A stretch of 32,559 bases of DNA from Phycisphaerales bacterium (GTDB lineage: Bacteria > Planctomycetota > Phycisphaerae > Phycisphaerales > SM1A02), in NCBI GenBank assembly GCA_020345805.1, contig CP070772.1, positions 1,966,628-1,999,186 of the forward strand. The letters are read 5' to 3'. Position 1 is the first letter of the stretch, and each line of letters opens with the position of its first letter. Both the position numbers and the translations under genes were made by a program. This document shows, one piece after another, positions 10,882 to 25,897 of this stretch. The notes beneath the pieces are model-generated. The model saw nothing but the letters and a program-made list of their open reading frames with translations, was not told where the DNA came from and did not search any database.

Positions 10882-11106
10882 ATGCTGGTGATCACGAGAC
10901 GAGAAGGGGAAGAGGTCGTCATCGGTGATCCGGACAACCCCATCGGGGTGGTGAGGGTCGCCACGATCAAGGGGGATCGGGTTCGGTTGGCGTTCGCCTT
11001 TCCGCGCGAGATTGACGTTCACCGCCGGGAGGTCGCCGACCAGATTCTCGCCGCCAAGCCGAGCGTGGTTGGGACTATTCGCCCCACCGGGACCAAGGCT
11101 CACTGA
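10882..11106 (+). CDS. csrA: CsrA/RsmA translational regulator
   Basis: CsrA dimers bind GGA motifs in mRNA leaders and repress or activate translation. The 74-aa protein starts with the family signature MLVITRREGEEVVIGD and ends its core with PREIDVHRREVADQI, including the Arg equivalent to Arg44 that contacts RNA. The strand region is slightly longer than in E. coli (DPDNPIG insertion), and there is a 12-residue tail. A perfect AGGAGG lies 9 nt before ATG 10882. There is no flagellar gene or FliW nearby, unlike many csrA loci. Structured GGA-rich DNA at 21725-21859 is a conceivable partner RNA. Confidence 0.96.
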   Translation: MLVITRREGEEVVIGDPDNPIGVVRVATIKGDRVRLAFAFPREIDVHRREVADQILAAKPSVVGTIRPTGTKAH

Positions 11107-18743: not shown

Positions 18744-19415
18744 TCAGAAAGGCATGCTCAGCCCCAGGTAGAGCATGATGCTGTCGCGGCCGGGATTCTG
18801 CTCGTGGGTGTGTGCGTTGGAGATGTGGTGCCAGCGGAGGCCGCCCATGAGGCGATTGTTGTCGCCGATGTTGTAGGTCATGCCGAAGCCGGCCTGGGGA
18901 GTGAAGTTGAAGCTCGACCCGTCCTGGGGCGCGTCGCTGGAGCTGCCCAGCAGTCCCGCCCCGCCGTCCAGATACATGGACCAGTCCGGCTCACTGATGA
19001 AATGGTACCTGAAGAGCAGTGCGAAGTTCGCGGCCAGCGCGTTGTCGCCGACCTGGCTGACGTACAGGCCGTTGAACTCGAAATCGAGGCTCAGGTCATC
19101 GGCGATGAAGTACTCGAAGCCTACACCGAGTTGTCCGAGCTTGTTATCGCTGTCCTTGACGTCCAAGCCCGCCCCACCGTGCAGGTAGATCCGCCAGGAC
19201 TCGGCGGTCCCGAAGGGAGGAGGGGCAGGCTCGATGGCCGGAGGCTCTTCGACCTGTTCGTCAGCCATCATGACCAGGCTGACCACCGGTTCGGCAGCGG
19301 CGGGCGCAAAGCGGAACTCCAGTCGCTCCACCCCGTCACATTGACCGGCGACGGCGGTATTCTGCAGCGAACTCATGGCGACAGTGGTCAGGGCCGTCAG
19401 CAAAGTCAGCGACAC
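18744..19415 (-). CDS. PagL-like outer-membrane acyloxyacyl hydrolase (lipid A deacylase)
   Basis: This 223-aa outer-membrane beta-barrel has a signal peptide (ending near AVAGQ) and a Pro/Glu-rich linker, then alternating amphipathic strands from about residue 75 (WRIYLHGGAGLDVK...). The end LRWHHISNAHTHEQNPGRDSIMLYLGLSMPF carries the PagL-type His-x-Ser (HIS in HHISNA) and the downstream NPG, and it closes with a C-terminal Phe as outer-membrane barrels do. PagL removes the 3-O-acyl chain from lipid A, so this implies a lipopolysaccharide-bearing outer membrane. It starts at GTG 19415 behind GGAGAG. The catalytic acid position is not certain. Confidence 0.8.
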   Translation of the reverse strand: MSLTLLTALTTVAMSSLQNTAVAGQCDGVERLEFRFAPAAAEPVVSLVMMADEQVEEPPAIEPAPPPFGTAESWRIYLHGGAGLDVKDSDNKLGQLGVGFEYFIADDLSLDFEFNGLYVSQVGDNALAANFALLFRYHFISEPDWSMYLDGGAGLLGSSSDAPQDGSSFNFTPQAGFGMTYNIGDNNRLMGGLRWHHISNAHTHEQNPGRDSIMLYLGLSMPF

Positions 19416-20540: not shown

Positions 20541-20691
20541 AAGAAAAAACCGCCGCCCGAACGCTCCGACACTCCGGACGGCGGCGCGCCACGGCCCGAA
20601 GGCCGCGATTGTCTGAGGATGTTTACGCCCCACAGTATCCGCATCGTCGCCGTCCGGTCAATGGGCGATAGGCGGTAAACCGAGAAAAACG
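20541..20691 (-). ncRNA. Candidate small structured RNA
   Basis: On the minus strand a perfect TATAAT (rc of 20698-20703) would start transcription near 20691. The predicted RNA ends about 150 nt later in a GC stem followed by six T (rc of 20544-20549). Internal structure is strong. CCGGACGGCG (rc of 20648-20657) can pair over 10 bp with CGCCGTCCGG (rc of 20574-20583), and between them lies CGGCC-UUCG-GGCCG, a tetraloop hairpin (20592-20605). The 10-bp pairing overlaps the 5' arm of the terminator, so the two cannot form fully together. The class is unknown; it does not match SRP, tmRNA or RNase P signatures. Confidence 0.45.
20544..20584 (-). terminator. Intrinsic terminator, minus strand
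   Basis: Read on the minus strand, CCGCCG (rc of 20579-20584) and CGGCGG (rc of 20550-20555) form a stem enclosing a second TCCG/CGGA hairpin, and six T follow immediately. No minus-strand protein gene ends here, which is why the upstream sequence is proposed as an RNA gene. The plus-strand kinase gene stops just before at 20515, but in that direction the stem has no T-run behind it. Confidence 0.75.
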
Positions 20692-20697
20692 CAAGTC

Positions 20698-20727
20698 ATT
20701 ATACGACAACGGTTTATGATCGACCAA
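20698..20727 (-). promoter_or_regulatory. Promoter of the candidate small RNA
   Basis: Minus strand: TTGGTC (rc of 20722-20727), an 18-nt spacer, then a perfect TATAAT (rc of 20698-20703). The -35 matches only three of six consensus bases, but the local DNA is clearly AT-richer than its surroundings. Confidence 0.5.
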
Positions 20728-23173: not shown

Positions 23174-23248
23174 GACCCCATCGTCTAGTCAGGTCCAGGA
23201 CATCAGGTTTTCATCCTGAAAACAGGGGTTCGAATCCCCTTGGGGTCG
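23174..23248 (+). tRNA. tRNA-Glu (UUC)
   Basis: A full cloverleaf can be drawn. The acceptor stem is GACCCCA (23174-23180) with TGGGGTC (23241-23247). The D-arm lies around CGTCTAGTCAGG, the anticodon arm is TCAGG-TTTTCAT-CCTGA with anticodon TTC, and the T-arm is CAGGG-GTTCGAATCCCCT. The 3' CCA is not encoded, and the discriminator is G. A serine-recombinase gene reads toward it from 190 nt away, but no second copy of its 3' end occurs in the window. Confidence 0.97.
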
Positions 23249-23439
23249 CTTTTCCTTGAGATAGATAGGCAGCGTATCGGCGTCCGAGGTGCCGCCGGGG
23301 GCGGTCGCCGCAGGCGGCTCAAGCGCCATCTGCTCCGAAGCCTAGTCGCGATCACGTCGGGCCTGGCTGGCTCGCTCCCTTCGGGCCGGGTCGGTGGTCT
23401 CTGGATGCCAAGCTCTGGTGGTGCGAGCTAAGGATTAGA

Positions 23440-25425
23440 TCAAGCCTTGCGGTTGCGGGCCGTGTTGCCTCGCGGCCTGCCTCGGCGTACCTCAGGCAAG
23501 GCAGCATGAATCACCTCGGTCTCCAATCCCGCCTGGCTGCCAGCGATCGTCGGCAGGACACGCACCTGGATCCTCGCTTCTCCCTTCCTCCGATCGATGA
23601 CGATCCCGTCGATGCATCGTCGTGCTGCCGCCTGGCGTTGATCCAGCGGGCCTTCGCGTAATGACGGCCCAAGACAGGCCACGAACCTCCTCGTGTCTGC
23701 ATCCAAATCACCCACCTCCGCCTCGGTCAGCGTCAGGTGATCCAGCGACTCGATCTTCGTCTCCAGCTGCTCCCGCTCCTTCGTGAGCTCCGCCAGTCGT
23801 TGATCGACGAGATCGCGATTGGCCTTCGTGATGTTGTCCAGCAGGTTGCGTGTGGTCTTGTCAACTCGTATCAGCTTCGCCTTCAGGCTCTTCCGACGTT
23901 TGCTGATCCGGTCACGATCTCCGTCGATCTGCAGGCCCACGACCTCAGCGATCCGCTTCTCGGCATCCTCTCCCGCATACCGCCCGTAGAACTCAACCAG
24001 CGAGGTGATCACTGCTTCTTCCAAACCATCCTTCGGCAGCGCGCCAAGTGTGCAGCAGTGACGTCCGTGCCTGATGTAGCCTCCGCATCCGTAGTGCAGT
24101 GTCCTTCGCCGCTCGCCGTCGGTACTTCGATTCCCGTACCGCGTGAGTCCCTCATACCTGCTGCCGCAGCGCGAGCAGGTGCAGAGCCCCGACAGAAGGA
24201 ACTTTGCCTTTGGTCCGGTCCATCCACCCGTTCGCTTCCCAGCCTCCTCCCCCGTCCGGGGGTTGATCCCACGCTGGCGCTTCGACGCGGGCTCTTCCTC
24301 CAGTCGTGTCTTCGCTGCCTCCCAGATGCGCCGACTAACGATCGCCGGATGAGCATCTCGCGTTACGATCCAATCCGACTCATCGTTGGGCTCAAGTCTC
24401 CGTCCGTGCACCCCCACTCTTTCCACCGCCCGTCCATCGGCGATCCGGAAGAACCTCGCATCCGTTCTTCGGTTCCACACCAAGTCTCCTGCGTACGCCG
24501 GGTTGATGAGGATGGCGCGGACGCTGGTCAGCGACCATCGTCCACCGTACTGGGCCGCCCACTCAGACCCTCTTGACGTCGGAACTCCATCGCGGTTCAG
24601 TGAGTCGGCTATAGCCTTGAAGCCACGCCTCTCCTGAACGTACTCCCGAAAGATCCGCCTGATCGTCTGGACCCGACTCTTCTCGCTCAGGACGAGCCTG
24701 CACCGGTCCTTCCTCGAAACGGCAATCGACTCACCCCGCTCCAGCGTGCGTGTCAGCATCCACTTCTTGTCGAACATCTGCTTCGTTCCATCACGCATGT
24801 AACGCAGGTGGAACAGGAACTGACCTGACTGGCTCTCGTAGCCGAGGTCGTATCCGAAAGGCGGCGCGCCGCCCATCCACCACCCACCCAAGTTCCGCTC
24901 GCCCGACGTTAGCCGTCCATTGGAACTGCCGAACGTGGCTCTGCTCAGCAATCCTCGTATCGCCACCTTGGCCAGGTCCTTACTCTCCTCACGTGCCTGC
25001 CATTGCTTCACCGGCCGTAGCAGATCATCCGTGCCATCGCCGGAGAAGTTCTCGCTGACGTATCGGACCTCAACTCCGTGCGTGCGGAGCACATGCCGGT
25101 AGTAGCCCGCCTCGTCGTTGTCGATCCGGCCGAACCGCTTGACGTCGTAGACCACGACGATGGTGAAATCGCAGCCACGCCGCTTGGCATCGGTGATCAG
25201 TGCCTGGAATGCCCGACGCCCAACTGTGCTCGTTCCGCTGGCGGCATCGTCGACGTAGAAACGGACCAGCCTCATGCCGTGCTCGTCAACGTACTGCTCG
25301 ATTGCCTTCTTCTGGTCTGGAATCGACTGCTCCTGGCGATCCGTGGATCGCCTCACGTAGCCGACGGCCCTGAGCGCCCTGACCTTCCCGCCGCGTGGCC
25401 GATTGACAGTGCCTGCCCGTGCCAT
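23440..25425 (-). CDS. Large serine recombinase
   Basis: This 661-aa site-specific recombinase has an N-terminal catalytic resolvase domain with nucleophile Ser27 (VGYVRRSTDRQEQSIPDQ) and the arginine-rich region VVVYDVKRFGRIDNDEAGYY. A recombinase domain follows (EYVQERRGFKAIADSLNRDGVPTSRG), then a zinc ribbon (LLSGLCTCSRCGSRYEG ... HYGCGGYIRHGRHCC) and a C-terminal coiled coil (ITKANRDLVDQRLAELTKEREQLETKIESL). ATG 25425 has an excellent AAGGAGG 7 nt upstream; the extension to 25485 is rejected for that reason. Proteins of this size integrate or excise phage-like and conjugative elements, but many planctomycetes carry orphan copies. It looks full-length. No directionality factor or phage gene is adjacent. 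Confidence 0.95.
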   Translation of the reverse strand: MARAGTVNRPRGGKVRALRAVGYVRRSTDRQEQSIPDQKKAIEQYVDEHGMRLVRFYVDDAASGTSTVGRRAFQALITDAKRRGCDFTIVVVYDVKRFGRIDNDEAGYYRHVLRTHGVEVRYVSENFSGDGTDDLLRPVKQWQAREESKDLAKVAIRGLLSRATFGSSNGRLTSGERNLGGWWMGGAPPFGYDLGYESQSGQFLFHLRYMRDGTKQMFDKKWMLTRTLERGESIAVSRKDRCRLVLSEKSRVQTIRRIFREYVQERRGFKAIADSLNRDGVPTSRGSEWAAQYGGRWSLTSVRAILINPAYAGDLVWNRRTDARFFRIADGRAVERVGVHGRRLEPNDESDWIVTRDAHPAIVSRRIWEAAKTRLEEEPASKRQRGINPRTGEEAGKRTGGWTGPKAKFLLSGLCTCSRCGSRYEGLTRYGNRSTDGERRRTLHYGCGGYIRHGRHCCTLGALPKDGLEEAVITSLVEFYGRYAGEDAEKRIAEVVGLQIDGDRDRISKRRKSLKAKLIRVDKTTRNLLDNITKANRDLVDQRLAELTKEREQLETKIESLDHLTLTEAEVGDLDADTRRFVACLGPSLREGPLDQRQAAARRCIDGIVIDRRKGEARIQVRVLPTIAGSQAGLETEVIHAALPEVRRGRPRGNTARNRKA

Positions 25426-25897
25426 GCCCGGACCTCCTTCCGCCGCCGAACCCGGCGGCCTTCGTTCCGGGAGCCATAGGGGCATAGGGTGGGCCGCATA
25501 TCAAGGCGATTTGACGAGAATCTGGCCGGATCTGGCGGCCTTTTTTCGCCAACTTCTGGCCTCAACGTGCAGTTGGGGAGCACGACGACGCCGAGGCGCT
25601 CATTCAGCCGGACGTCCTAGCACCGGCCGGGCCGAAGTCGCGTCATCCGGAGGCGATGACGGCTCGCGCCGAGAACTGTGGCAGGTCGACGGGCAGACCG
25701 AAGCAGCCTCCCAGGGACCGCGGTCGACAGGCAACTCGTGCAGAAGCAGATGCCGTGGCCTATTCACGCGGCGGTCTTCCGAGTCGCAGGCCGCGAGTTC
25801 GAGTCCTGCCCGGAACTTGCGCGCTATTCGGCTCCACGAATATCGTAATTCGGGCCGTCCGGCGAGGCACTGTCACTTCTGACAGTCGGTTGGGACG
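25426..25897. other. Recombinase upstream region with tRNA relic and palindrome
   Basis: These 472 nt between the recombinase and the ion-channel gene contain no convincing gene. They include the tRNA-Gly relic (25771-25815), the motif TAATTCGGG (25846-25854) seen also near the IS relic, and a perfect 7-bp hairpin ACTGTCA-CTTC-TGACAGT at 25869-25886, which lies 12 nt beyond the stop codon of the ion-channel gene. The recombinase promoter and any attachment site should also be here. Confidence 0.55.
25771..25815 (+). pseudogene. tRNA-Gly (UCC) 3'-half relic
   Basis: GCGGTCTTCC-GAGTCGC reads as a tRNA-Gly anticodon arm (anticodon TCC in loop CTTCCGA; two G-T pairs in the stem). Then AGGCC and GCGAG-TTCGAGT-CCTGC follow as a T-arm with one broken pair. 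The 5' half (acceptor strand and D-arm) is not recognisable and the acceptor stem cannot close, so the gene is not functional. A tRNA fragment next to a recombinase gene is typical of an attachment-site copy or of past insertion. Confidence 0.6.

Follow-up and report, generated by a model that had tools for sequence, protein, structure and literature searches.

A conserved small RNA gene of Phycisphaerales with an invariant terminator loop complementary to the leader of an H1-like gene

The minus strand of the window (the whole 32,559-nucleotide stretch of Phycisphaerales DNA analysed here) carries a gene for a small RNA (sRNA) of ~85 nt at positions 20543–20627. Comparison with relatives identifies it as a real small-RNA gene, which would be transcribed from its own promoter. 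That promoter, an intrinsic terminator, a covarying structure and a conserved seed whose complement lies in a distant mRNA suggest a free-standing, trans-acting base-pairing sRNA. We propose, as the probable reading, that this Phycisphaerales RNA acts in trans without Hfq, its terminator loop pairing with the leader of an H1-like gene and adjusting that gene's translation; it would thereby probably control how much of a histone-like DNA-packing protein is made. Planctomycetes have tightly packed DNA and, to our knowledge, have been little studied at the RNA level; a limited literature search found no described planctomycete sRNA with a target. A single-copy, order-wide sRNA and a conserved site in a histone-like mRNA form a regulatory pair that is open to direct testing.

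Results

Promoter, extent and folding of the small RNA gene

Two hairpins make up the RNA. Hairpin 1 (minus strand, 20590–20607) pairs 20607–20601 with 20596–20590 and has the loop UUCG in the window genome. The terminator hairpin (minus strand, 20550–20584) has an 11-bp stem (20584–20574/20560–20550) and a loop that holds the invariant core UCGGAGC (20563–20569), the proposed pairing seed. It is followed by a run of six T (20549–20544), read from the sequence and T-rich in relatives. Both the UUCG hairpin and the strong stem with its T6 had been part of the original prediction of a free small RNA with promoter and terminator, a prediction that conservation, covariation and a conserved promoter strongly support. 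A terminator scan skipped the terminator hairpin solely because it was limited to loops of ≤8 nt. In many members (L010, L015, L023, L029 and L039), CUUCUU is repeated directly 5′ of hairpin 1, a possible second contact site.

Oriented alignments of 33 relatives, anchored on TTGAC, gave the promoter consensus C(A/G)TTGACC-N16-(G/C)(A/C)TACT. The window copy spans 20661–20634 on the minus strand, with the −35 element TTGACC at 20656–20661 and the −10 element GATACT at 20634–20639, both conserved in relatives; a promoter scan flagged the same −10 element. The C two bases 5′ of TTGAC is conserved, a TACT-type −10 lies at a spacing of 16 in nearly all of the 33 relatives, and the T, A and C of the −10 are kept in 28–29 of them. 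Judged by its conserved sequence, this is a sigma-70-type promoter and the RNA's own. Because the conserved promoter is TTGACC/GATACT at 20661–20634, the transcript start is placed near 20627; the 5′ end thus comes from the promoter and the 3′ end from the T-run.

This start shortens the RNA, which had been predicted to begin at 20691 and to run for 150 nt, to ~85 nt. The TATAAT thought to drive it is present on the minus strand (20703–20698); as a promoter it is not conserved, and it sits within a conserved dyad. We therefore ruled it out as the promoter, since relatives keep TTGACC-N16-GATACT instead. Folding is in keeping with the shorter form: the 85-nt RNA is more stable than shuffled sequences (z −2.38), whereas the longer, 152-nt version gains no stability over shuffled sequences (z −1.04). 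The dyad itself, TAAGTCATTG-N-CAATGACTTAC (minus strand, about 20690–20718), is seen in the alignments of relatives and lies ~30–60 nt 5′ of the sRNA −35 in families f1, f4, f5 and f6; from its sequence it is likely a binding site for a putative regulator.

Genomic neighbourhood and the proposed switch

The original prediction had also paired the 5′ arm of the terminator (20583–20574) with 20657–20648 in a 10-bp helix (CGCCGTCCGG/CCGGACGGCG), as in a terminator/anti-terminator switch. The perfect complement is there, and it is only modestly unusual: dinucleotide shuffling of these 187 nt produced a perfect stem of ≥10 bp in 23 of 1000 cases; the competition with the terminator arm did not hold up. 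The 5′ partner (minus strand, 20648–20657) consists of the end of the −35 element and the promoter spacer and is not conserved; lying between −35 and −10, it falls outside the transcript made from the conserved promoter. In relatives, where pairing of this helix had been named as the check, the spacer is no more complementary to the terminator arm than shuffled spacers are. The switch was ruled out on these two grounds, the 5′ partner in the promoter spacer and the chance-level complementarity.

At the 21 loci examined, the sRNA gene stands alone between genes. Its upstream neighbour is a divergent NUDIX gene in eight, spread over several families, or a phosphorylase-like gene. Convergent downstream lies a PfkB kinase in four loci, the window included, CstA in six, and other genes elsewhere. 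Since the neighbours vary among loci, the sRNA is not mainly a leader and the antisense position of the kinase is not conserved; read-through antisense into the kinase, as once suggested, is not indicated, the kinase being convergent in only these four.

The minus strand was said to have no downstream gene, but a PagL-like gene (PF09411) lies at 18744–19415, 1.2 kb downstream of the sRNA with the kinase antisense in between. It is the only candidate for a gene that the RNA might serve as a leader or terminator/anti-terminator element, and a same-strand PagL-like gene is found downstream, up to ~1.2 kb away, in 11 f1 loci. We regard such a role as highly improbable: the PagL-like gene is absent from this position in f2, f4, f5 and f6 loci, where CstA or other genes are convergent, and the switch helix would need the untranscribed spacer. 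For want of synteny outside f1, we accordingly rejected the idea that the RNA serves the PagL-like gene as leader or attenuator.

Covariation and distribution of the RNA family

A DNA search matched the locus in 30 of 61 relative genomes. We aligned 61 sequences from families f1–f6 of Phycisphaerales (alignment A2), enlarging an alignment of 36 (A1). In A2, whose two helices are those of hairpin 1 and the terminator, 90.2% of cells pair. Two-sided changes occur at 16 of the 18 pairs, values matched by none of 500 shuffles, and pairing drops to 30–53% in controls with slid helices. Changes on both sides affect five of seven pairs in hairpin 1 and, across the 61 sequences, all 11 pairs of the terminator stem. 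UCGGAGC, the loop core, does not vary in A2 (61/61) and is likewise invariant in A1; this invariance is partly built in, as TCGGAGC was the string by which the 25 additions to A1 were found and some of the 36 were obtained by a loop-containing pattern.

A covariance model found the RNA, mostly as one copy per genome, in at least 158 of 301 Phycisphaerales genomes, and in 25 of 392 genomes drawn phylum-wide, 22 of them Phycisphaerales. Named records among the matches are Phycisphaerales and other Planctomycetota MAGs. Two genomes of other Phycisphaerae orders gave weak matches (G579, E 6e-5; G361, E 0.4). Their RNAs (L344 and L353) keep the promoter, the GCCGTGGCG linker and the terminator stem and differ in the terminator loop; their targets may differ from those in Phycisphaerales. 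Searches against Rfam (4227 families, gathering score) returned nothing except tRNA in the window and 18 relatives, which rules out a known Rfam RNA, and a plasmid or phage element was excluded in the absence of any match. The RNA constitutes a new sRNA family, restricted to Phycisphaerae on present sampling.

An invariant loop could also mean that the same sRNA gene mainly serves to bind a protein such as CsrA, with the H1-like match secondary. CsrA-family proteins occur in 11 of 11 sRNA-bearing genomes, most of which have at least two, and GGA, a CsrA motif when placed in a hairpin loop, falls within the invariant loop; in both respects the RNA resembles the CsrA-sequestering RNAs of the CsrB/RsmZ type. 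Unlike those RNAs, however, it displays a single GGA loop rather than several and has no Rfam match, and a U takes the place of CsrA's usual A before N-GGA. All seven nucleotides of the loop are invariant, not GGA alone, and the target leader conserves the complement of the loop, not a copy. A protein-binding role for the loop is, in our judgement, rather improbable, and pairing with the H1-like leader is the reading we pursue.

A complementary site in the leader of an H1-like gene

The loop complement GCTCCGACA (a 9-mer) is not enriched genome-wide in six genomes. When two single-contig genomes were compared, the only orthologous 5′-leader sites lay upstream of an H1-like gene (MAKKKRATKKK...), whose product is small and Lys/Arg-rich. 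All 19 sRNA-bearing genomes with an H1-like ortholog have CTCCGA 28–45 nt upstream of the AUG; the orthologs were gathered without the site as a criterion, by one leader-containing query and one leader-free pattern, the former making the set lean somewhat to similar leaders. CTCCGAC is identical in 18 of 18 f1 leaders, one of which (G024) comes from a genome in which no sRNA was found, and the flanks are mostly 30–70% identical. Across the 301 genomes, the pattern GCTCCGA + Shine-Dalgarno (SD) + ATGGC gave 76 matches, against ~15 for the reversed control, and the recurrent class among the pattern matches was H1-like genes of f1, f2, f3 and f5. Of 30 leaders, 13 place the site in a hairpin loop; among copies elsewhere in the genomes, 8 of 74 are so placed (Fisher p 7e-4, optimistic because the sequences are related).

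Pairing between the loop and this leader is likely. Neither side of the core varies, which makes covariation uninformative there; outside it, co-variation appears in single cases only, as in G082 (f2), where the match is extended, GCUCCGAUCUC versus GGGGAUCGGAGC, and f1 has GCUCCGACAC versus GUGUCGGAGC. In no more than about half of the genomes do the loop's duplex energies clearly beat those of shuffled loops. Families f4 and f6 have no qualifying H1-like leader site, though their sRNAs share the same core.

The leader GCUCCGA may instead act in cis on the H1-like mRNA, whether as an anti-Shine-Dalgarno partner or as the site of another factor, its match to the sRNA not being regulatory. CTCCGA is kept by five of the seven H1-like orthologs whose genomes gave no sRNA (G024, G033, G270, G257 and G165), one of these five genomes being an 80%-complete MAG and three belonging to one genus (g34). 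In g34, neither the searches R2 and R3 nor a pattern search found an sRNA; a divergent sRNA, considered as an explanation for these sites, was thus not found. The leader CUCC can also pair with the SD, with a predicted probability above 0.8 in G021, G030 and G031. We nonetheless consider a purely cis-acting element unlikely, as most leaders show only weak pairing of the site with the SD and the conserved block exceeds the SD complement in length and matches the sRNA core exactly.

Leaders L273–L292 of H1-like genes have further features in common: a GGCGG...CCGCC hairpin 5′ of the site, and GGUCAU as an extension of the SD, able to base-pair with AUGGCC across the start codon. In the window genome, another copy of GCTCCGACA (L191, G000:C1:3466857) precedes an alcohol dehydrogenase-like gene, 29 nt before its start.

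Discussion

Genome comparison backs the RNA gene, its promoter and structure, the invariant loop and the complementary leader site. That the RNA is transcribed and physically pairs with the leader, in which direction it acts and what it does for the cell are inferred in the following model of sRNA control over the H1-like gene. The sRNA would be transcribed from its own sigma-70-type promoter, with a regulator-like dyad upstream, and ended by the intrinsic terminator, whose loop would expose the invariant, GC-rich 7-nt core UCGGAGC. Without Hfq, which was not found in 11 genomes searched, all sRNA-bearing, this loop would form 7–11 bp, possibly as a loop–loop contact, with GCUCCGA in the leader of the H1-like nucleoid protein's mRNA, 28–45 nt 5′ of the AUG and directly upstream of the Shine-Dalgarno. 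Pairing would alter translation of the H1-like protein, with limitation of DNA compaction as the presumed physiological role.

Hfq-independent loop-seed sRNAs as a class have their own promoter, an intrinsic terminator and a conserved single-stranded seed. The Phycisphaerales sRNA shares this plan; its family is new. The closest comparison is with IhtA of Chlamydia, a 107-nt Hfq-independent sRNA with three reported stem-loops that represses the histone-like HctA via a 7-nt GC-rich loop (PMC4355289). The seed of IhtA is loop 1, which covers the hctA start codon, and its terminator loop is dispensable (PMC4355289, PMC3469542). Both are short, structured RNAs of the PVC group with a 7-nt GC-rich seed in a hairpin loop; they also share independence from Hfq and a target that encodes a small, strongly basic DNA-binding protein of the H1-like type, both as proposed in our case. 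Unlike IhtA, the Phycisphaerales RNA has two stem-loops and carries its proposed seed in the terminator loop, and its site lies 28–45 nt upstream of the AUG and upstream of the SD rather than at the start codon.

We take this likeness as a functional parallel, not homology. By analogy with IhtA, repression is somewhat more likely here than activation; in a few genomes, activation by releasing the SD from the leader CUCC is possible. The IhtA/HctA parallel bears on the control of chromosome compaction in PVC bacteria. It is conceivable, and we offer this tentatively, that Planctomycetota and Chlamydiae each evolved sRNA control over an H1-like protein on their own, or that such control is an ancient PVC trait in which the RNAs have been replaced; in the Phycisphaerales it would act through kissing of the terminator loop with a leader loop and be set by the TF dyad.

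Two further features of the window deserve mention. A second, divergent CsrA-like gene lies at 10882–11046 on the plus strand, 9.5 kb from the sRNA, and most genomes checked have one canonical and one divergent CsrA copy. A tRNA gene (23174–23248, plus strand) precedes a gene for a large serine recombinase (23440–25485, minus strand), and the region 23174–25485 is possibly the edge of an integrated element.
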